Shown here piece by piece: positions 10,988 through 25,026 of a stretch of DNA of 64,000 nt. Numbering within the stretch: the stretch's first letter is position 1; each line of letters begins with the position of its first letter. This DNA comes from Candidatus Kapaibacterium sp. GTDB lineage: Bacteria; Bacteroidota; Ignavibacteria; Kapaibacteriales; NICIL-2. The translations under genes were made by a program, and so were the position numbers. The notes beneath the pieces were generated by a model that saw only the letters and a program-made list of their open reading frames with translations, had not been told where the DNA came from and did no database searches. Where the stretch lies: NCBI GenBank assembly GCA_026003475.1, contig BPHJ01000001.1, positions 1,673,189 to 1,737,188 on the forward strand. The letters are read 5' to 3'.

Positions 10988-11018
10988 AGCGGCACTCTCG
11001 CATAGCGGGAGTGCCGCT
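10988..11018. terminator. Bidirectional terminator between convergent FmdB-like and Rieske genes
   Basis: A 14-bp near-perfect stem, AGCGGCACTCTCGC with GCGGGAGTGCCGCT (one G-U pair), encloses a 3-nt loop in the 79-bp gap between convergent genes. Flanking T/A runs are short, so the strength of termination is uncertain. Confidence 0.65.
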
Positions 11019-11046: not shown

Positions 11047-11532
11047 TCAGAATGTAATCGTCAAGATGTTCGTTTGCGGGTCGAACGTCGCGCTGAACCG
11101 CTGAAGGGGCCCCGTCGGCCCGCTCCCTGATGGCAGCTTCGTCTGCGCACCAGTCTGTGGATCGTATTCGGATAGGTGGCAAGGGCAGACCAACCGTCCA
11201 CCAGCTTGCTGCGGCAGACCAACTTCACACCCTTGGTGTGTACATCGCGAGGATAACACCAAAAAGCTTGCCTGCGCCGTTCGGATAATGAACACTGGCA
11301 TTCCTCCGTTGTTATTGCCGAACGTGCGCTTGATGATGCCACCAACATTTACCAGCGCTGGTTCCGCTGACACATCGAACTGAACCGTCTGGCCAGTGGT
11401 TGAGGGCTTGGTGGTGTCGCTTTCACAACTGGCAAGCAGCGACGCCAGCGCACTGCTGGAAAGAACCGCACCAATGCTTGCGGCTGCATCGAGGAGAAAT
11501 TCCCGCCGTTGGTAATTACAGGTGGATGCCAT
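11047..11532 (-). CDS. Rieske [2Fe-2S] protein, Tat-exported lipoprotein
   Basis: 161-residue periplasmic iron-sulfur protein. The cluster ligands are complete: Cys97 and His99 in RCTHQGC, and Cys116 and His119 in CPCH, with Cys102 and Cys118 placed for the disulfide of high-potential Rieske proteins. The N-terminus has a twin-arginine motif (QRREFL, Arg9-Arg10), a hydrophobic stretch and a lipobox LLASC (Cys36). It is therefore probably folded before Tat export and then lipid-anchored. It is the last gene of a four-gene operon with a cytochrome-barrel protein, so I infer electron transfer rather than a dioxygenase role. No cytochrome b gene is adjacent. Confidence 0.9.
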   Translation of the reverse strand: MASTCNYQRREFLLDAAASIGAVLSSSALASLLASCESDTTKPSTTGQTVQFDVSAEPALVNVGGIIKRTFGNNNGGMPVFIIRTAQASFLVLSSRCTHQGCEVGLPQQAGGRLVCPCHLSEYDPQTGAQTKLPSGSGPTGPLQRFSATFDPQTNILTITF

Positions 11533-11564
11533 ACCTTGCTCCAGGATGGTGAAACATTCGTTGC

Positions 11565-12212
11565 TTACTTGGACACACCCAACAGCGTTGCCTCGACGGT
11601 GATTTTCTCACCCACGCGACTACCGATGAGAGTGCCTTTTCCTTTGATACCGAATTCAGCCAGTGGAACAGAGAAATTTGCCTGCACCAGCGCCAGATCA
11701 CCTTCGATGATCGCCCGGGTTTTCTCAGAACGTTCCAGGTACGTTATGGTAACGTCTGCCGAGAGTTCCTTGGTGATGCCATGGAGCGTAAAGTCACCGA
11801 TTGCGACAGCTTTGACCACTGCGCGATCGGCATCACGGGTTACGGTAGGAGATTCCAAGCGCTTGAGTCGGAATGCAATGGTCGGATACCGGTTTGCATC
11901 GAGCCAGTCGCTGCCATACATGTGTCCATCGCGCGTTGAATTCCCCGTTTTCATCGAGCGCACCTGGAGCGTGATGGTGCCGCTGGCACGCTTGAACTCG
12001 CCAATGTCGAGCGTAAATTCCCCGCTGAAGCCATCGGCGGTTCCAACGATAGTCTCCAGGGGAGCAGAGCTGGTAAACTGAGCCTGGTTTCGATACTTGC
12101 CCGCGTTCGTCAGGACAAAGGACTTATCGCCAGCCCATACGGTGGCAGAACCAATTACCAACAACAGAAAGAGTCTGCAAAGCATACGAAGCATCCGACG
12201 TTTATGAAACAT
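11565..12212 (-). CDS. YceI-family periplasmic protein
   Basis: 215-residue secreted protein with an N-terminal signal peptide (MFHKRRMLRMLCRLFLLLVI... to VWAG) and a YceI-like lipocalin-fold domain. The domain shows GTADGFSGEFTLDIGEFKRASG, the DWLDANRYPTIAF segment and GDFTLHGITKELS. YceI proteins bind polyisoprenoids such as quinone-like lipids. The start at 12212 overlaps the end of the upstream small membrane protein by 11 bp; a start six codons further in is also possible. The Rieske gene follows after 32 bp. Confidence 0.9.
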   Translation of the reverse strand: MFHKRRMLRMLCRLFLLLVIGSATVWAGDKSFVLTNAGKYRNQAQFTSSAPLETIVGTADGFSGEFTLDIGEFKRASGTITLQVRSMKTGNSTRDGHMYGSDWLDANRYPTIAFRLKRLESPTVTRDADRAVVKAVAIGDFTLHGITKELSADVTITYLERSEKTRAIIEGDLALVQANFSVPLAEFGIKGKGTLIGSRVGEKITVEATLLGVSK

Positions 12213-12510
12213 GCATTTGTGACCGTTTCCGAAGCCATAGGCCAAGCGCTCCAAGCCCCAACCACAGCCCGCACAGTGGGACAGCTCCAAAGGGCGGCGC
12301 TGCATCGAAGAGACCCAACCATCGTCCCGGCTGCAGTTCCACCCGTTTGATCTCCTGACCAAAGAGCCGATCATGCTCGACGATGACAACCTCCCGGGCT
12401 GTCTTGCTCAGCAGCAGCGGCTTGCCATAGTCAATCGAGTCCCACACCCACCATGCAAGGGTAGCAAGCGTCAGAACAACCGATAGCGTCAACAACACTT
12501 TTGCCAGCAT
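12202..12510 (-). CDS. Small two-span membrane protein, unknown
   Basis: 102-residue protein with a hydrophobic N-terminal segment (residues 2-24, ending WWVWD), a roughly 45-residue polar part, and a second hydrophobic segment rich in Gly/Leu near the C-terminus before a basic tail (LRKRSQ). I do not recognise a family. A strong GGAGG site precedes the ATG. It lies 16 bp after the cytochrome-barrel gene and overlaps the YceI gene, so it is part of that operon and may be an inner-membrane partner. Confidence 0.75.
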   Translation of the reverse strand: MLAKVLLTLSVVLTLATLAWWVWDSIDYGKPLLLSKTAREVVIVEHDRLFGQEIKRVELQPGRWLGLFDAAPPFGAVPLCGLWLGLGALGLWLRKRSQMHVS

Positions 12511-12526
12511 CGTTCCTCCGACAGCG

Positions 12527-13696
12527 TTAGTAAAACACGTGCAACTGGACAGTCCAACGATTCAAGCGGTAGAGCGGCAAATCAATGATGCGATACTCAG
12601 GGCGAAGCTCAACAAATGGAAGTACGAAAATCTGTGCACCGATTAGGTACTGCTCTTGCCGCATGGAAACACCGTTTGCCAGTGTTTCTCCATATTCCCC
12701 GCGCATGTACACGTAGAGTGGTTCCGCAGGATGGAGCATGAGTTCGGCAGAGGTCGCCGTGATGGTCCGCACCCCGGTAGTCTGCTGATGCATGGTTTCC
12801 AGCGTGAGTGCGGCAACGTCGGCATACCCAAGACCACCGAACACATTCCACAGCGAAAAATCCCCTTGCTGGAGGGTTGAGCTGCCGATGTTGAGGGTCA
12901 GTCGTTCCCGGAACAGACGAGGAGAAAGCAAGAGCCTACCGATAAGCGCTGGCTTGGATGGCTCGCCAAGGAGCGGACGCTCGGCGCCCGTGGCATCGGT
13001 GAGCGTAGCACCTGCCAGGCTGGAAAGCGACGATACACCAAGTGTTGCGGTGAGCCATTCGAAGCGGTAGTAGTTGAGTTCGGCACCCCACTCTGCCCAG
13101 TTCGGAGCGAAAAGGTAGTCCTGGCTTCCCGCGGGAATTCGACGCACCAGCATTGTATGGTCATCAAATCGGTAGCCAATGGAGGGCTGAAAAAATCCCA
13201 CGCGAAGCTGGGGATAGTCCAGCGACGGCTGCACGGCAATACTTGCCGACCAGGATTGCTGCCCTGCATACGCGTACACTCGTCGGCCGAGATTATAGCT
13301 CCCCTCCACACGTAGCCAATCAAGTGGCTTATACGCTGCGTAGAATGCTCCTTGCATCGGGAAGAGGCGACGGTCATCAGAGGTATCGCGCAGTGAACGC
13401 GCACTTTGCAATCGAAAATCGAGCCCAACGGTGAGACGATCGTCGAGGAATGTATTCGTCGAGAGGACGGGCCGGAGGGCACTGAGCCCAAGGTCATCAA
13501 ATTGGAGCACGCCCACGCTCTCCATCGCATACCAACCTAAATCATTGCGCGCACCCCCACCTTGCACGTTGACGTGGCAATTGATGCAACGATTCCCCGT
13601 GAGCAAACTGAACTGCGGCAGCGCCTGCAAGGGCGAACAAGCTACCACCAGCAGAAAAGAGCCCACCGGTGCAATCCCTTTCCAGAATCGGAGCAT
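12527..13696 (-). CDS. Monoheme cytochrome c / outer-membrane beta-barrel fusion (Cyc2-like architecture)
   Basis: 389-residue exported protein. The signal sequence (MLRFWKGIAPVGSFLLVVAC) may carry a lipobox at Cys20. A single c-type heme site follows, CINCH (residues 37-41), then a glycine-rich GGGARNDLG segment. The remaining 330 residues or so look like an outer-membrane barrel: alternating aromatic/polar strands, repeated Tyr/Phe/Trp, and an aromatic C-terminus (LHVFY). A heme domain fused in front of a porin-like barrel is the architecture of the iron-oxidising cytochrome Cyc2. The Cyc2 consensus after the heme is not obvious, so this may be another CxxCH-barrel family. It is the first gene of a four-gene operon. 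Confidence 0.75.
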   Translation of the reverse strand: MLRFWKGIAPVGSFLLVVACSPLQALPQFSLLTGNRCINCHVNVQGGGARNDLGWYAMESVGVLQFDDLGLSALRPVLSTNTFLDDRLTVGLDFRLQSARSLRDTSDDRRLFPMQGAFYAAYKPLDWLRVEGSYNLGRRVYAYAGQQSWSASIAVQPSLDYPQLRVGFFQPSIGYRFDDHTMLVRRIPAGSQDYLFAPNWAEWGAELNYYRFEWLTATLGVSSLSSLAGATLTDATGAERPLLGEPSKPALIGRLLLSPRLFRERLTLNIGSSTLQQGDFSLWNVFGGLGYADVAALTLETMHQQTTGVRTITATSAELMLHPAEPLYVYMRGEYGETLANGVSMRQEQYLIGAQIFVLPFVELRPEYRIIDLPLYRLNRWTVQLHVFY

Positions 13697-13742: not shown

Positions 13743-13775
13743 ACACGGCGGCATGTTTGTTTCATGCCGCCGTGT
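13743..13775 (-). terminator. Terminator-like hairpin after the giant surface protein gene
   Basis: A perfect 13-bp stem, ACACGGCGGCATG with CATGCCGCCGTGT, has a 7-nt TTTGTTT loop and lies 55 bp beyond the stop codon. Downstream on the minus strand is only a short T/A-rich stretch. It separates the surface protein gene from the cytochrome-barrel operon on the same strand. Confidence 0.7.
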
Positions 13776-13829: not shown

Positions 13830-16800
13830 TTACCGAACCACGACGATAAGCTGCCGAACAGCTGTGCCGCTGGTAGTCCGCAGTTCAAGCGAGTACGTAC
13901 CCGACGGCAAATCGAGTGCTTGCACCGACAGACGGAGCGTTGTTTCTCCCGTGCCCGCGTAGCCGCGGAAGAGCACAGCGCGTTCCTTCCCTGCCATATC
14001 GAACAGCGCGATCGTTACCTGCTCAGCCCGCGCAAGGCGATAGCGCACCGTTGCATCGCTGGCAATCGGCATCGGTTCAACGCTCAGCATCGCTCCACTT
14101 GCTACTGCGCTCTCCTCCGCGCTGGTGATAATCGTCACACCAACTGCACGCGACGTCACCGATCCGCAATCGTTGCTAACGACGACCTCGTACGTTCCAG
14201 CATCAGCGCCCTGGGCATTGAGCTTGCGATAGGTGCTACTTGTGGCGCCAGGGATGTTCTGCCCGTTTCGCCGCCATTGGTACCGCAATGCCGACCCTTG
14301 CGCAACGACGGTCAGTTCAAGCGTTTCGCCCCCAGCGATACGAACTTCTGCTGGTGGCTGCTGCGTGATCGTTGGTGGTACTTGGACCGTGAGGGTTACT
14401 TCTTGCGAGGTCACTTGCCCGCATTCATTGCGGACGATGCAGCGGGCAGTGCGACCATCGAGCTGTATCACTGCTTGTGGAACGCGGACGATCGCCTCTG
14501 TTGCGCCGGGGACATCTTGCCCATCGAGCTGCCATTGGTACTGCAAGCCGCCACCAGTTGCCGCGATGCGGATTTCGAAGGGCTGCCCTTCACAGAGCAC
14601 ACCGACTTGAGGCTGCTGCGTGATCTGCGGCTGGGTGTGGACAGTCACGCGCGCAACTTGTGAGCTCACTTGACTGCCGCCTGGCTGAACGGTGATGACA
14701 CACATGTAATCGCCCTCATCGGCTGGTGTGGCTGTAAGGATTCGCAACGTCGCTGTCCGCGAGCCGAAGATGTTGCCACCATCGCTGAGCGGCTGGCCGT
14801 CTTTCATCCACTGAATCGAGATCTGCGCTTGCGTCACCGATGGATGATTCGGCACGTAGTCAATGCTCAATTGCACAGGACGCCCAGCGCAGACCGTCTG
14901 CGATGATGGTTGGCGTGTGATCTCGACCGAGGGAATAATAATCGCAAAGTCCGGAGAGCGGACCGTCCCGCACACTCCGGAAACGACCACGGAGTAGTCT
15001 GTTCCAAGGTCGGATTGACGGATGTCGCGAATTGTAAGCCGCGAGGTCGCAGCGCCAGTAATCCGCAGGCCGTCAACAAGCTCTTGGCCACCCTTGTACC
15101 AACGATAGACAAGATCGCCGAGCGTGCCGAGACCCGTTCCCTCCGCTTGCACTTCGACGGTGACTGTTGCGCCGAAGGCAACGAGCTGATCGGTCGGGTT
15201 GCGTGTAATTGTCGTTGGAATGGCAACGTCGATGACGAACTGTTGCGTCGTCAGCGTGGGAGTACCGCAGACGCTGCTGCCGGTGACGACACACCAGTAC
15301 GTGCCCGCCGTGGTCAGCAGTGCGCTCGGGATAACAAGTGCAGGCCCGTTCTGCCCAACCAGTGGCGCACCGTCTTTGTACCACTGATAGCCTTTCACCG
15401 TCCCGAGCGTCTTGATGGGAACGATCACCGGCGACCCAACGCATACCACTGTCGAGCGCGGCTGATCAGTGATGGTGGTAGGCTGCTCGACCGAAAGCGT
15501 TGCAATCGCTGAGCGGCTCTGCGAGCACGTCCCCGAGATGAGGACGTCGTAGTTACCCGAATCGGCAACACTCGCACTTGCAATCGCATAGACTGCACCG
15601 GTTGCGCCCGGAATCGGCTGGCCGTTGCGATACCATTGGTATTGCGGTGCTGTGCCAGTAACCAGGACATTCAATTGCACCGGCGACCCAATGCAGACGG
15701 TCGTATTCTGCGGCTGCTGCGTGATGCGAATGTTTTGGTTGACGTTCAGTTGCGCTGTGTTGGTTGTAACACCATTGGGCGAGCAGGTGCCCGTGATGCG
15801 GCAATCGTAGCTGCCTGCATCGGCTGCAGTGACGTTGGTTAGCACCAGCGTTGCTGTCTGCGCTGTCGGATTGCCGGTGATTGGCTGACCGTTCTTCCGC
15901 CATTGGTAGGCGGGTGCATCACCAGTGACGCTGACAGCATAGCTGACGGTTGCTCCTTCGCAGACGGTCTGGTTTTGCAGAGGCGAGCTGGTAATGCGAA
16001 TCATTGCGCGAACAGTTAGCGTTGCATCCTGTGAGCGCTGGGTGTCGCCACAGTCACCTCTGACCGTTGCGTAGTAGGTACCAGCATCGCTGAGCTGCAC
16101 CGAGCTGAAGTTCAGTGCAAAGCCTGTCGCTCCGGGGATTGCGGTGTTGTTCTTGTACCATTGCACCTGGAGGTTGGCACCAACTGCTCCAACCACCAGA
16201 CTCAGTGCGCTCTGCTCGCAGACAGTTTGAGACTGCGGCTGCTGGGTGATCTGCGTGATCGGATTGACGGTGAGTGTTGCTGCCTGCGAGGTGATACCGT
16301 TGGGCTGGCATGGCGTCATAATCACGCAACGATATTGCGCAGCATCACTTGCACTGACGTTGGTCAGTACCAGGGTCGGTGAAGTTGCTGTCGTGTTGCT
16401 TGTGATGTTGATGCCGTTTTTCTGCCATTGGAATGTTGGCATCGTCGCATCGCTATTGATTTGCACTGCGAAGCTCACTGTTGCACCTGGGCACACCGTC
16501 TGCGACTGCGGATGCTGCGCGATCGTCGCGCTGACGTTGACTGTCACCACTGCGGTATTGCTGGTAACGCTGTTGCACGTCCCGCTGACGACGACTGAGT
16601 ACGATCCCGCATTCGCCGTCGTTGGATTTGCAATCGTGTAGGTCGCGTTGGTTGCACCACTGATGGGATTGCCGTTGAAGCGCCATTGATACGTCAGCCC
16701 TGCACCCGTCGCATTGACGCTGAGGACGAGCGGATTGCCCGTACAGACACTCTGCGACTGCGGATGCACTGCAATACGCACTAGCTCGTTGACCGTGAGA

Positions 16801-19800
16801 GTCGCTGCATTGGAGAACACACCATTGGGGGTGCATGGCCCGGAGACGAAACAGCGATACTGCCCGGCTTGCGAGGGCTGGACGTTGGTCAGTTGAAGCG
16901 TCGGTGTCGTCGCTGTGGGATTCGTGCCTGGGTTGATCGGCGCGTTGCCGATGAACCACTGGTACGAAGGCTGCGTCCCTGTAGCCGTCACGGCGAACGT
17001 GACGTTCTGCCCTTCGCAGACTGTTTGGCTGCTCGGATGAGCTGTGATTGTAATCGGCTGTCGAACGACCACGGAGACGACATCCGAATAGAGCGGCACG
17101 CTCGAGCACGAGCTGGTGATCGCCACGCGGTAGTTGCCATCATCGCTTACTGCTGCGCTGGCTTTGGTGTAAGTGTTGCTGCTTGCACCGGCGATGTTGG
17201 TCCAGTTGCCAGTGCGGCTGGGATCGAACTGCCATTGGTAGGAGATCGTCAAGCCTTGCTGGATGCTGGCCTGGACACTGAGCGTGAACGATTGACCCGG
17301 GCAGAGCGGTTGCGGCGCTTGTGGTTGCTGTGCAATCGTCGGCGGTGAGCACGTATAAACGCTCACAACGTTGGTCGTCTGCGCCCCTGGTCCACATGGA
17401 CCGGTAACGATGCACCGGAAATTGCCCGAATCGGCAACGCTGGTGACGGTGAACTGGTACACGTTCGAGTTCGTACCAACGTTGACCCAGTTCCCGTTGC
17501 GGAATTGATCGCGCTGCCATTGGAAGTTCGCAGTGCCAGTGTAGCCAACGGTGAGCGTGACCGTCTGCCCCACAGTGACCGGTGTGCTCGGCCAGGATGG
17601 CTGCGAGGTAATCGTGAACGGTTGCTGCACGTTCACAAGCGCTGGATTCGATGGGATCGGTGTCGTCGAACAATTCCCAACGATGACCAAGCGGTACTGC
17701 CCACTATCGGCAACGGTGGCATTGGTTTTCGTGTAGGTGCTGCTGGTTGCACCGGTGATATTCGTCCACGTGCTGCCAACAAGACGTTGCCACTGGTAGC
17801 TCACGACTGTGCCGATTGTTTGCACGCTCAGCGAAATAGTCCCACCTGTGCAGAGCGTCTGCGACTGCGGATGCTGCGAAAAGTCTGCGTTTTGAATCAC
17901 CGTTAGTGTTGCGATGTTACTGGTCACCTGTGCAGCACATGGACCAGTTAGAATCACGCGGTAGTCCCCCGCATGGCTGAGCTGAATTGGATTGAGCGTC
18001 AGTGTCGGGCTGTTCGACCCAACGTTGCTCCAGTTCCCCTGCCCTTGGGGCGAGCGTTGCCATTGGAAGATTGTCACCGTGCCGCTATAGCCAACCGTGA
18101 TCGTGGCTGATTCGCCAGTACATAGCGTTGCAGAAGGCGACCACTGCGGCTGCTGAGTGATTGCATGGGGAACATTGACTGTGACAGGAACGGACACGGA
18201 GGTATCGTTCCCGCATGCACCCGTGACGATGAGCCGATAGTTCCCACTATCACTTGTTGTAGCATTCGACTTGCTGTACACAAGATTCGTCGCGCCGCTG
18301 ATGTTCGTCCATGCGCCACTGCTGCCAGGCCGGAATTGCCACTGGTACTGCAGTGAACCGCCGGTTACTTGCGTTCCGCTGATCGTAATCGGATCCCCAA
18401 CGCAGAGCGGGTTCGGTGGCGTTGGCTGCGTCGTGATTGAAGTGTTGGGAATTTGTGTGACTGTCACCGAACTCGACGTCACGCTCCCGCACGTTCCCGT
18501 GACGATAACGTCGTAGCTCCCAAAATCGCTCGCCTGCGCATTGGTCTTCGTGTAGGTGCTATTAGTTGCACCTGTGATAGGCGTTCCAGCTTTACGCCAC
18601 TGGTAGGTGAGATTTGCGCCGCTGGCCTGGACGCTCAGTGTGAACGTCCCGCCAAGACAGAGCGACGATGGCGTCGCAATTGGCTGCTGCGTGATAACAG
18701 TTGGCGGAATCTGCGTGACGGTAACAGGGTTGGATGTCACAGTCCCGCATGTCCCAGAGACGACGACATCGTACGTTGCAAAATCAGCGCTCGTTGCCGA
18801 TGAGACAGTGTACGTTGCGTTGGTTGCGCCAGAAATTGGCGTTCCGCCGCGCCGCCATTGATACGTCAGGTTATGCCCAACCGCTCCAACGGTGATTGAG
18901 AACGATTGCCCAAGGCATACGGAACTTGGCGTTGCGACAGGCTGCGCAGTAATCTGCGTCGTGCGGCGGACGTTGACCGTAGCGGTGTTCGACGTTGCAG
19001 TTCCGCACGTTCCGCTGACGACGACGCGGTAGTCACCGGAATCGCTCGGCGTAGCACTTGCGACGCTGTACGTGGTACTTGTCGCACCGGAAATGTTGCT
19101 CCACGTGCCGCCGACAAAACGCTGCCACTGATAGGTCAAACTTACACCGCTTGCAGTGACCGTAAGGGTGAACGGGTTCGATTGGCAGAGCGTTACCCCG
19201 CTTGGCTGCTGCGTGATCTGCGTTTGCGGGTGCACGGTCACCGTTACTGTGCCCGATTGCACTGAATCAATCGGACTGGCATAGACGCGGACAAAGTAGC
19301 TGCCGCCGTGCGAGAATGTGGCGCTGGGCACAATGTACACCGCATTGGTTGCACCAGCAATCGGATTACCATTCTGGAACCATTGATAGCTCAGGGTCGG
19401 CGTCACACGGCCGCTAATGCCATCGTTGTACTGTGCCGATGCCGCAACCGAAAGCGTGAGCGTGCCGCCATCGCAGAGGACCGTATTCTGCGGTTGGGTT
19501 GTGATGGTAACGTTGATTTTCACCTCGTCGGCGCCCATCGTAAAGCGAGTACGCGTTTCGCCGTCGTAGTCCGTTGAAACCGAGGAGCTGACCGCATTTG
19601 TCCCAAGCAGCGTCGGATACTGCTCGGCAAGGTGCACATCGGCAGTAAGTGTGGTATCTACAAAGCGCACCGACACGGTCTGCGAATTTTGATCGCGCCC
19701 TATCGCTGTGCGGAGCCCGGTAAGCGACGTTACATCTGCACCATTCGCATATGCAAGCACACCCTGCGCAGTCGCTGATACATCGTAGTTGTTGTAATCG

Positions 19801-22800
19801 AGCGCGGCAATGGGAATCGTACTGGGGTTTGCCGCTACGTAAAGAGCATAGGACTTCGAGCCGCTCGCACCGTACATCCGGTTGTGGAAGATGTTATTCC
19901 GTACATCAATGTTCGCAGTGCTCGTGTTGATGAGCAGTGCGGCGCTCTGGCCTGACCCACTCGATGGCACAAAGTACGACCCGCGGAGGAACACGGAGTT
20001 ATGGTACACCTTGACGTTGCCAGTCGAGGTAATGCGAATGCCGTAGGTACGATATAGTGTGGACGAAAAATAATCGCGATCGTGCGCGACGTTGGAGATC
20101 ATGTTGTTGGCAAGGATGATGTTCGCATTACCGCCGCTGGTTGTGACATCAATCCCATATGCCCACCAGCCTCCATCTGCGGTGTAGAAGATGCGGTTGA
20201 TCCGATTCCCGAGAACTGTCGTGTTGGCAACGCCCGTCGAAAGCCCAATCCCATAGACATTGTACCCGCTGCTGGAATAGCCGAGCACGCCATCAATAAC
20301 GTTTCGTGCGAGTGTACTTCCAGAGATGTTATCAACAAAGATTGCCGCACCACTTGACGCAGCGGGTGAAATGTTGAGAATTGCGTTGTCGGTGATCGAG
20401 AGATTCGTCGCCCAACTTGCCATGATGCCGCGATACCGAACGGTGTCGCTCGAGCCGTAACTCGATCCACTGCCGCCTATTGTATTCCGGGCAATCGTAA
20501 TGCTATCGCTTGGGAAACCACTCGTCCCAATGATACGCACGCCATAGTAGGTGGCCGAGACTTGATTATCGCTGAGCACGATCCCACGGTTGCCGTAGCC
20601 GGCTGAGCCTACCGACGTTCCACCAATGAAGATGCCATACGCACTCGAGTTGGCGTTACTCCCCGTTTTGATCGTGCAGAACCGTACAGTGTCGTAGGCA
20701 CACCCTGTCAGTGAAGGATTGTACGCCGACTGCCCCATAAAGTGAATCGCAGCGATTGCTCCGCTGGTGGCATTGTTGACGATCGTGAGATTGTTGCCGC
20801 TCGATTCGCCTGGACGGCGGCCGTCAATGATGACTCGCTGCGCGCTGTTGAAGCGGAGCAAGCCACCAGAGGAATTGGTACCACTGATTGTCGGGCTGGT
20901 GCCCGATGCTGGACGAATGGTGATTGTGTACGTACCAGCGCCGGCGCCCTCTTCCGCAAAGGCATTGAGTGCAACCGTCCCTGTTTCGCTCGTCAAATTA
21001 CCAGTGACGAGAACGGTGACGTTGCCCGTTACAACGCGATTGTTGATGTAGTCGAAGACACCGCCAGTATTTGTTAGCGACGTTATGGACTCGTTCGGAC
21101 CAACCGTAATCGTCCCACTGACGCCCTGCGCAATGGTGTAGGAATAGACCGGCGTTGCAGGGAAGTTCGCATTCGTGAGTGCAACGCTCGTCGGCTGCGT
21201 AGTAAGGACTGCACCACCAACTGCAACGTTCGGTGTCGAAGCCAAATCCTGGGCGACGAAGAAGTACTGGATCACATCCCCAACGCTGAGCGCACTGGTG
21301 AGCAGCGAATAGTTGATAACGAAGGTAAATGGCGAGCTGGTATTGGAGGCTTCGACCCACTTCCAGCCGTTGTCGGTGCTGGTATTGCCGACGTATTGGT
21401 TGGCTTCGGTGGACTTTTTGAAGTAGAGCCGTGGACGAGTGCCGCTGGTGGTGTTGACCCCACTTCCTCCGTCAATGATGATGATGTTCGGTACTGTGCG
21501 TGTGCTGGTGACGGTCCCGTTGGTAAGCGGAGTGAACGCGATCGCCGGTGGCACAATGTCGTTGACGGTGAAGTTCCCTGCGTCAGCGCCAATATCAATC
21601 GGCGATAGCGACGAGCGCGATTGGCCATCGTAATCGTCGGTTACTGCTGGGCCGAAGAGTATCGGGCCGCCACCGCCTTCGACTGGTGTCGAGCCAGTCG
21701 TTGCGATGTGCAAATCACCTGTGCTCGCACTCCCATTCGGATTGACAAAGTTCGCATCGCCGTAGCCGCTGGAGGCATCCATCCCGGATCCGGTACGCCA
21801 TGCGGCAAGCGTTTGGTAGAGCGTGATGGTGGATGTTCCAATACCACCGACAAAGCCGCCTGTGCCTGGTGTGTAGAAGAGGTTGTTATCACATGCCAGC
21901 GTCGTCGTTGTTCCGAGCACGATTGCAACGTGGTACCCGGTCCCTGAGGATGTCGTACGGTTGACTTGGACGATGTTGTTCCGAATTTCATCGGTGCTGG
22001 TTTGATTACGGAAAAGGCCAAGAGAGTAGAGCACCCCGCCAGCGCCCGATGCAACACTGCCACCGATGTAGATGCTGTTGTGGTAGATGCCCGTCGGTGA
22101 TGCATTGTTCTTGTAAATGCCATAGAAGCTCACCTGCCCAGTTACTGCGTTTCCGTTCGGATCAAGGCCGAGTCGAATCATGTTATTGCGAATGTTCGTC
22201 GCTCCACCGAAGATGAGCATCCCTGTCCCGATCACTGCAACCGAGGTACTCGATGGAGTCGCTGCCAAGGTCAAGGAGTGGATGTAGTTTTTCTCCACCA
22301 GCGCAATTCCTCCACTCGTGGTGGAGGCAGAATTGACACCCATACCGAGCACCCAGTGCGAGGCTGTCGCTGTTGCTGTGTTGAGACTGCGGAGACTGTG
22401 GACGACATTCCCCCGCACAATGTGACCGCTCAAGCCGCTCAGTGGCTGCGTGGTCGAGTTGACAGCGATCCCGGTGAGCGCCATCGATGGGAAGGAGGTG
22501 CTGCTGTTGAGCGTGGTCGTTGAGAGGTTGTACACCGTATTGTTCTCGACAGTCACCACTCCGCTATTGATGAGGATGCCGCGGATAAACTGCGTCCCAG
22601 AACTTGTCGAGGTACCGTTGTTGTTCAGATTGGCAACGGTGTTTCCCGAAACAATCATCCGCACATGGCTTGCACTGGCACTGATACTTATGCCGGTAAG
22701 CTGCTGTGTGCCAGTTGCGCTTGTAGCAGCGTTGATGCTGTTGGCCGTAGAGGTGCTCCCGATGAGGTTATTGGTTACGTATGACTCACCACCTATCGTC

Positions 22801-25026
22801 GAGGCAACGTTGATGCCAATGAAATTCCACCCCGATGCAGTGTTCTCAGCATTCATCGTGATTCCACCGACAGTGTTCCCGCTGATGGTCACCGCGAATC
22901 CTTGCGTCGAGGAGGGGTACCCATAAATCCCGTTGAACGTCGGTGGCGTGCTCGTCGTTGTGCTCTGGAGTGTGATGGCGTTCGTTGCAGATGCGCTGCC
23001 GACCACGTTGTTTTGGATGATCAAATTCCCGCCGAAGGCATAGATGCCATTGCAGGCAACCGTTGAGGTACTCGCTGTGCGGAAGTAGAGATTGGTGATG
23101 ACATTTCCAATAATCCGTGTTGTATCGAACGTACTCGTGACGAGAGAGCAATAGATACCGTACATGATTGGTGTAAGCGTCGTCGTGTTGATATTGTACT
23201 GCAACTGCGAACCACCGGCGTTCGGCTGAGTGCCGCCGATGTAGTTGCCCGCTGATCGTGTGGCCACCAGAATATGTAGATCCGACCAAGTAAATGTGGT
23301 AAAACGTAACGCTCGATGTGAACGTGCGGGCAGTTGTTTGGTAGAAACTATTCCCCGTGATGATCCATCGCGTATAGCCAGTAGAACCGAAGATACCATA
23401 GTGCGTCGTGTTTGCAAAGTAGTTGTAGATGTTGCAGTTGCTAATCGTGTTACTATCGCTGAGGATAGTTGTTGTTCCGACGGCATACACTGCGATGGCA
23501 GGCTGCGTTGTTGATAGGGTATCGCCGATGTTGCAGTTGTCGAAGGTGTTCTTCCGGTTGCCGATGGAGGTTCCGGGGCTGCCGAAGTAGATCGTCCCTG
23601 TTGATGTCCCCGTCGTCGCACCGAGAATTCGGCAGTATTGGAACGTGTTGTTCGTCGCCCCGTTGTAGAGGCGTATCGTTCCTGCTGAGGCAGCGGTGTT
23701 GACGTTGGCAATCGTCAGCGCACGGGTTGTGCCCGTTCCGCCAGGCCGTCCGTCAAACCTGACCCAACTCGCACCGTTGAGATCGAGGATGGTGGTACTA
23801 TTGCTGGCACCGATGACAACACTTGATACACCCGAGGCAGGACGGAAGGTGACGGTGTTGCTGCTCGATGCACCTGGAATCGGCCCATTGAAGACCAGCG
23901 GGAACGCTGGCTCATTTGAACTTGAGTAACTGGAGAGAAGCTCGAAGACAACCGAACATGCAAGCCCTAACGTGTAGATGCTATCTATTGCTGCTTTGAT
24001 ATTCGGGTAGTTGGTGCTCGGGATCTGCCGCGTCCCGCAGAGCAAGGGACCGGTTGTCGCTTGCGTTCCACTGAGAGCAGCACTGGCTTTGCCTTCGGAC
24101 ATCGCATAGATTCGCCAGTAGTATGTTGTACTCGGCGTCAGTCCTGTTGCAGTGTAGGAGGTTGCGTTTGGCGAGGTAAGCACAACATTCGTGTAGTTTG
24201 TTCCGTCCGTGGAGCGCTGGATCAAGTATCCAATTTCATTGCTGGTGTTATCCTGCCAGTTGAGCGTCATCTGGCCAGGCAGCACGTTCGTGAACGTCAA
24301 ATTCGTTGGGGCATCGAGCGTAACTTGCGGGGGCGTAAAGGTCAACACAGTATTCGTGGGTGGTATGGTAGTGATAGAGGTAGTCTCCGTTGTTGAACTT
24401 ACCGCATTGTACGATGAGTTTACAGAGAGAAAATTACCACTCCCTGTGCCTACTGCGGTAATACCAATAGAAGCAGATCCTGCATCCCCATTTGAGTTAT
24501 CCTCGTATCGATAGCGAAACTCAATGATCCCACTACTTTCATACAACTTGATTTGAAATGAGAATAAATCACCATTGCCGGAAAGAAATTCAACGTTATA
24601 CCACTCAGCGGTAAATACTCGATTCGGTGAGGTACCATCGGTGCGATATGAGAAGTACCCGACGCCACTGTTCATAATCAGATCGTCCCAAAATGCCGTA
24701 ATGATTGGCCTGGGAGTTTGTGACGTCAAGTTGTTAGTGTACGCAGTAGGAGCGGTTGAACCAAGACAAAGTACACCATTTGTGCTCGCAGAAACCTGAG
24801 AGTAGAATTGCCCCATGAACACAAAATCGAAACCAATCGGGATCATTCCAGTGACAGCATCATCACCCGAAAGAGTCGTTGTCGTTGTACCAGATTGTCC
24901 ATAGATCTGGCTGAACGTTGCTGTTGAGTTACTAAATGTGTAGTTGGTAATGCTCTGCCCCCAGAGTAACGGCGTAATGAGCGCTGCACTGAAAAGAGCA
25001 AAGCAAAGAGAAGACACGCGTTTCAT
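13830..25026 (-). CDS. Giant T9SS-exported surface protein with beta-helix and 20 Ig-like repeats (one frameshift)
   Basis: About 3730 residues if one frameshift is repaired. From MKRVSSLCFALFSAA it has a signal peptide, a roughly 200-residue N-terminal beta domain and a fibronectin III domain (APTNLTFTNVLPGQMTLNW). Two right-handed beta-helix modules follow, each closing with a DYDGxxR...GAD motif. Twenty Ig-like repeats of about 90 residues come next (14130-19520). The T9SS C-terminal sorting domain ends LPSGTYSLELRTTSG...RQLIVVVR. The reading frame changes at the GGG run 23248-23250: the N-terminal part is read from 25026 to about 23251 and the rest in another frame to 13830. The start has a CGGAG ribosome binding site. 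It is likely an adhesin or cell-envelope protein delivered by the SprA-type machinery. Confidence 0.88.
14130..19520 (-). repeat. Tandem array of 20 Ig-like domain repeats
   Basis: Coding repeats of about 270 bp within the surface protein. The typical unit is ITQQPQSQTVC..G...L.V.A.G..LTYQW..NG.PI.GAT...Y......ADSG.Y.VVVSGTC..VTS..ATVTV. Units are diverged in protein, but short DNA blocks recur, such as gtctgcgactgcggatgc near 16500, 16750 and 17860. Three units (8, 17 and 20 from the N-terminus) lack the first cysteine. Confidence 0.9.

Follow-up and report, generated by a model that had tools for sequence, protein, structure and literature searches.

What does a porin-like barrel with a fused heme do in the outer membrane when it is encoded together with a Rieske protein, a YceI-family protein, and a small membrane protein? 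Four such genes lie on the minus strand of the 64,000-nucleotide stretch of a Candidatus Kapaibacterium sp. genome analyzed here (the window). The original prediction read them as a possible route for electrons across the outer membrane, with a heme-barrel protein (cytochrome-porin) built like the iron oxidase Cyc2. Our analysis makes it reasonably probable that these four genes are an operon encoding a module for electron transfer at the outer membrane. Its conserved unit is the pair of heme-barrel and Rieske genes, a point new to the present analysis.

Operon structure and genomic setting

The four minus-strand genes are located as originally described, with intergenic gaps of exactly 16, −11, and 32 bp in the order heme-barrel, two-span membrane protein, YceI, and Rieske, and two hairpins bound the unit (Table 1). 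The host genome is closed and 2.16 Mb in size, and its nearest named relatives, judged by the heme-barrel gene, are one MAG each of Candidatus Kapabacteria and Chlorobiota (78%–83% identity). Directly upstream of the operon lies the gene of a giant protein (3293 aa; window positions 13830-23711, minus strand) that has numerous Ig-like repeats and ends in a T9SS-type C-terminus; this neighbor is conserved in the genus (loci L055 and L056). As an outside redox partner it was dropped, since it lacks a CXXCH heme motif and a hairpin lies between its gene and the operon.

Table 1. Features of the heme-barrel/Rieske operon and its boundaries (positions in the window)
Feature	Position	Strand	Description and basis
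Heme-barrel (cytochrome-porin) gene	12527..13696	-	389 aa; translation, AlphaFold2, Foldseek, homologues
Two-span membrane protein gene	12202..12510	-	102 aa, small; translation; homologues in 36 loci; optional operon member
YceI-family gene	11565..12212	-	215 aa, signal peptide, lipocalin-like; Pfam PF04264; optional operon member
Rieske 2Fe-2S gene	11047..11532	-	161 aa, Tat signal and lipobox; Pfam PF00355; core partner of heme-barrel
CINCH c-type heme motif	13574..13588	-	Heme-barrel precursor residues 37-41; C13/C16/H17 in alignment numbering
His of DDHT motif	13157..13159	-	Residue 180 of heme-barrel (position 156 in alignment), in the long strand 5-6 loop
Invariant Met, motif FPMQ	13355..13357	-	Heme-barrel residue 114; alignment position 90; start of strand 2
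Perfect 13-bp hairpin	13743..13775	-	Between upstream T9SS gene and operon; likely terminator of T9SS gene
14-bp hairpin	10988..11018	-	3' of Rieske gene; likely operon end

A porin-type barrel with a single c-type heme motif

The heme-barrel precursor starts with a signal peptide, read by eye as ending in ...LQA and followed by LPQFSLLTGNRCINCHVNVQGGGARNDLGW, and its single CXXCH motif (CINCH) sits just after this predicted peptide. No Pfam or NCBIfam family matches the protein, a scan of 59 homologues yielded weak generic barrel matches only, and solved structures searched by sequence with the protein or its profile gave no match. The AlphaFold2 model, calculated from a 59-sequence alignment (pLDDT 91.5), has a helical segment at the N-terminus and a porin barrel of 16 strands. 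Foldseek matched it to 233 solved structures at E < 1e-3, with general porins at the top and OprP (2o4v; rank 3, TMq 0.61) and OprO (4rjw; rank 10) among the matches, so that the predicted fusion of a heme domain to a porin is borne out by structure prediction. The longest loop of the model connects strands 5 and 6 and contains the DDHT motif; general porins carry a constriction loop at the same place.

The CINCH motif can hardly be due to chance, as all 62 homologous ORFs retain CXXCH and C13, C16, and H17 are invariant in the 59-sequence alignment. Among 76 homologues from the order and the wider class, CXXCH is again present throughout, and the invariant positions are C13, C16, H17, R26, G30, D69, R71, and M90. 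Alignment position 156 (His180) is a His in 73 of these sequences and a Met in the remaining three, which are paralogues in family f3 of the order (L086, L090, and L092) with no Rieske neighbor. His and Met are the two usual axial heme ligands, and their exchange at position 156 suggests that loop residue 180 may bind the heme. His180 of the DDHT loop is our proposed second axial ligand on this alignment pattern, with Met114 (M90, 76/76 homologues) as an alternative candidate for the distal position. Sequence and model together support a predicted porin of 16 strands whose short N-terminal domain bears one c-type heme and whose regular partner is a Rieske lipoprotein.

Relationship to Cyc2 and other porin-cytochrome systems

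The anticipated Cyc2 architecture was recovered in the layout of the protein (signal peptide, one N-terminal CXXCH, OprP/OprO-like 16-strand porin) but not in family membership. OprP and OprO are the structures on which Cyc2 was modeled, and Cyc2 proteins carry the motif AXPXFAR[Q/K][T/Y] upstream of CXXCH (PMC8406198). The window protein has a similar AxPxF...TG..C..CH start over its first 19 residues, but its upstream motif ALPQFSLLT keeps AXPXF and T without AR[QK], as in its relatives. The Cyc2 motif PXL, four residues after CXXCH, is absent (CINCH-VNVQ-GGG), and in the heme-barrel family CH instead continues as VNxQGGGxRNxLGWY. Further differences from Cyc2 are the barrel part, which has no detectable sequence similarity, and the regular Rieske lipoprotein partner. 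A profile of six Cyc2 homologues from plasmids had no match in the host genome at E 1e-3, while the same profile detects true Cyc2 in other genomes of the phylum with E values around 1e-125. Comparison of the heme-barrel and Cyc2 with hhalign aligned only 19 N-terminal columns (probability 63%, E 7e-5), and a bridging group (A4) aligned with Cyc2 over 37 N-terminal columns (probability 93%). Motifs (FAR[QK] and PXL), profile search, and profile-profile comparison thus reject Cyc2 membership. The mini-cytochrome of the heme-barrel looks related to that of Cyc2 by these alignments, whereas its barrel sequence is not demonstrably so. When the barrel profile was run against plasmid records that carry Cyc2, no match was obtained, a result of little weight. 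AlphaFold2 modeling of a true Cyc2, for which only six close sequences were used, reached a pLDDT of 31, and the putative shared fold rests on the published OprP/OprO template rather than on a direct comparison of models.

Cyc2-like sequences were also noted in other genomes. Besides its Rieske-linked barrels, one member of the order (G018, L173) has a distinct Cyc2-like gene (AIPAFARKYQTSCVTCHTIFPQL), after which cupredoxin-like genes follow. In family f29 of the phylum (probably Chlorobiaceae; L172 among others), each genome encodes one to four proteins of ~400-500 aa with Cyc2-like first 40 residues. On a Caballeronia plasmid, a gene for a high-potential iron-sulfur protein (L095, 1418-1729) lies upstream of one for a Cyc2 homologue, comparable to the Rieske partner.

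MtrCAB, PioAB, and MtoAB likewise combine a porin with heme at the outer membrane, and the version of the operon in family f3 includes an MtrC/F-like multi-heme lipoprotein. In contrast to these systems, the window operon has a single heme fused to the porin and no MtrA-type decaheme wire. An MtrCAB-type conduit was rejected, since the single CXXCH is fused to the barrel and no multi-heme gene is present in the window operon.

Distribution and the conserved heme-barrel and Rieske pair

The heme-barrel gene is present in 54 of the 61 genomes of the order (52 of the 58 good genomes) and the family in 74 of the 395 genomes of a phylum sample. In loci with enough flanking sequence, a Rieske gene follows 3' of the heme-barrel gene on the same strand within 3 kb in 49 of 57 cases, and the pairing occurs in nine of the ten families of the order. 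The reversed arrangement, with the Rieske gene immediately before the barrel gene, is found in two lineages outside the order, one from the same class as the window genome (G212, L141) and one from the same phylum (G318, L148). Survival of the pair through this reversal of gene order is good evidence of a working partnership between the two proteins. Barrel and Rieske distances correlate as well (r = 0.74; permutation maximum 0.20), for which shared vertical descent is a sufficient explanation. A limited literature search found no paper describing the pair.

The remaining genes vary. All four are present in families f1, f5, f8, and f10, except for one f1 locus on a short contig. The ten f2 loci encode barrel, two-span protein, and Rieske and all lack YceI, and most f3 loci encode a six-heme MtrC/F-like lipoprotein, the barrel, the Rieske, and a mono-heme cytochrome c, in that order; YceI is absent from 12 of the 14 f3 loci, where barrel and Rieske persist. 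In f2 and f7, a mono-heme lipoprotein adjoins the operon. Family f4 lacks the Rieske, and two of its genomes retain barrel, two-span protein, and YceI without this gene as a neighbor; a few heme-barrel copies in f7, f3, and f9 stand alone. A lipoprotein gene just before the barrel in a locus of this heme-barrel family (L057, 2879-3268, minus strand) encodes CTLSGCH, whose CX4CH spacing is unusual among heme motifs. The expectation that the four genes stay together in relatives held insofar as they co-occur, but the conserved unit is barrel plus Rieske, and the set of four was dropped as a functional unit, since the losses of YceI and of the two-span protein are independent of each other. None of the outcomes that the original prediction named as refuting it was observed.

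Heme-barrels at the class level (alignment A3) are full-length homologues (hhalign, 330 columns, E 3.7e-46) and share CXXCH, the invariant Met, and the DDHT loop with the window protein, but mostly lack Rieske or YceI genes next door. Instead, several of them follow a T9SS-secreted Temptin_C heme protein. Such secreted mono-heme proteins are encoded just before the barrels in loci L136, L138, L139 (with the Temptin_C match), and L140, and they share the motif CxxCHxNPxGGGxRNxFG with the N-terminus of the adjoining barrels. It is possible that these secreted proteins are outside partners of some class-level barrels.

The Rieske protein and its respiratory context

The predicted Tat-exported Rieske lipoprotein is supported by its match to PF00355 (E 2.4e-10) and by an N-terminus with RR-x-F-L (Tat) and a lipobox-like LLASC. 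RR-x-F is kept in nearly all family members and the lipobox cysteine (C36) in all; the cluster ligands C97, H99, C116, and H119 (CxH ... CxxH) are present in all 51 aligned members. The two disulfide cysteines are mostly kept or lost together across the family. Ser and Tyr residues raise the potential of bc1 Rieske proteins, and the corresponding Ser121 and Tyr123 are both found in the window copy and in few relatives, so that a high potential is not a conserved property of this Rieske family.

The protein resembles bc1/b6f Rieske subunits, which are its closest solved Rieske structures, in its Tat-type N-terminus and in the disulfide cysteines and the Ser/Tyr pair that the window copy retains. 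It differs from them in having a lipobox rather than a membrane anchor helix, and in being encoded with an outer-membrane heme-barrel and not with a cytochrome b partner. No cytochrome b scored above the Pfam cut-off in the host genome (PF13631 remained below it) and none is encoded in the operon, so no bc1/b6f complex was found to which the window Rieske could belong. Its score against TIGR01416 is 39.8 bits, compared with a cut-off of 97.4. These results do not support a role as a bc1/b6f subunit. The host genome further has two other Rieske-domain genes, two COX1-family genes, and genes recognized, by eye only, as a putative Alternative Complex III (ACIII).

The YceI and two-span proteins

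Membership of the third protein in the YceI family, as first proposed, is confirmed by PF04264 (E 2.5e-26; 93.3 bits, cut-off 23.7), and weak matches to solved polyisoprenoid-binding YceI proteins were found in the PDB. The two-span protein matched no known family. YceI proteins can hold ubiquinone-8 (PMC9113575), and by analogy a quinone role of the window YceI is possible. The YceI gene occurs in 30 of 61 loci and lies outside the conserved core. The pairing of the YceI lipocalin BcnA with the cytochrome b561 LcoA is similar in that YceI is encoded with a redox membrane protein, but the window operon has no cytochrome b561 and its conserved core can dispense with YceI.

Proposed function and alternative explanations

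We think it fairly likely that the operon encodes an outer-membrane electron-transfer module whose Rieske protein connects heme-porin and periplasmic cytochromes, and an electron route across the outer membrane is plausible. The heme domain would plug the barrel at its periplasmic mouth, a placement also proposed for Cyc2 (PMC8406198), with the heme held by the His of CXXCH and probably a second ligand that the barrel provides, either His180 or Met114. A redox partner or a dissolved reductant would reach the heme via the pore, and the lipid-anchored Rieske protein would pass electrons between the barrel heme and periplasmic c-type cytochromes, which may in turn feed, or be fed by, ACIII and a caa3-type oxidase. 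Inward flow, i.e. the oxidation of something outside, is modestly favored over outward flow. YceI and the two-span protein would be accessories rather than parts of the conduit. YceI might carry a quinone or isoprenoid to protect or supply the chain; the two-span protein might serve in assembly or anchoring.

Electron transfer is favored by the conserved heme motif, the confident porin model, and the recurrent barrel and Rieske pair, as well as by the f3 operon, in which all proteins are redox proteins, and the mono-heme lipoprotein beside the operon in f2 and f7. Several points count against it. One heme does not reach across the membrane, which requires that a partner come into the pore; presence in 52 of the 58 good genomes fits a housekeeping role better than a specialized electron donor; and the f4 barrels without a Rieske neighbor, the lone copies in f7, f3, and f9, and the non-conserved high potential of the Rieske are further difficulties.

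Electrons might instead leave the cell when the usual oxidase is limited, reaching an extracellular acceptor or a secreted heme protein, which we regard as possible but rather unlikely. Although the six-heme lipoprotein of the f3 operon and the T9SS-type secreted heme proteins near many copies would suit such an outward flow, the bc1-like Ser/Tyr of the window Rieske points to a potential so high that most outside acceptors would be unsuitable, and the window operon lacks a multi-heme conduit. An iron oxidase in the manner of Cyc2, in which dissolved Fe2+ enters the pore and reduces the heme, with the Rieske taking the role usually played by a periplasmic cytochrome, seems unlikely. Iron oxidation is not known from the order in which the gene is near-universal, FAR[QK] and PXL are absent, the host genome has no Cyc2-profile match, and some Kapabacteria have a separate Cyc2-like gene too (L173); against this stand the Cyc2 layout, the resemblance over the first 19 residues, and the high-potential iron-sulfur protein gene beside the Caballeronia homologue.

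We find it improbable that the operon serves as an envelope antioxidant, in which a quinone-loaded YceI would quench lipid peroxyl radicals of the outer membrane and be recharged via the Rieske and heme proteins, as has been proposed for BcnA with LcoA (PMC9113575). Barrel and Rieske persist where YceI is missing (10/10 f2 and 12/14 f3 loci) and the operon has no cytochrome b561, despite the precedent of a YceI protein with ubiquinone-8 and a redox partner (PMC9113575), the shared operon in most families, and a near-universal presence that fits a protective role. Finally, a structural or gating heme, in a porin or redox-sensitive channel switched by the Rieske, is very improbable, as the neighbors in other families are cytochromes and not transport or regulatory genes, even if the predicted general-porin fold with a heme plug in the pore mouth would agree with it.

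Implications for heme-porins in the Kapabacteria

Returning to the electron-transfer module, we tentatively suggest, at somewhat less than even confidence, that it constitutes a previously undescribed respiratory module of the outer membrane. A Rieske lipoprotein that has left the bc complexes would be the dedicated periplasmic partner of a mono-heme porin. The module would be ancestral and nearly universal in Kapabacteria and reach into neighboring lineages, and single-heme cytochrome-porins would form a broad envelope redox class with Cyc2 as one branch. To our knowledge, Cyc2 is the only fused heme-porin family with a tested function. If our suggestion is true, a second, unannotated heme-porin family, found almost throughout an order and coupled to a Rieske protein, would mean that heme-porins do more than oxidize iron, and the gene set together with the residue predictions (His180 and Met114) would offer a concrete handle on how electrons may pass through an outer-membrane barrel with one heme.
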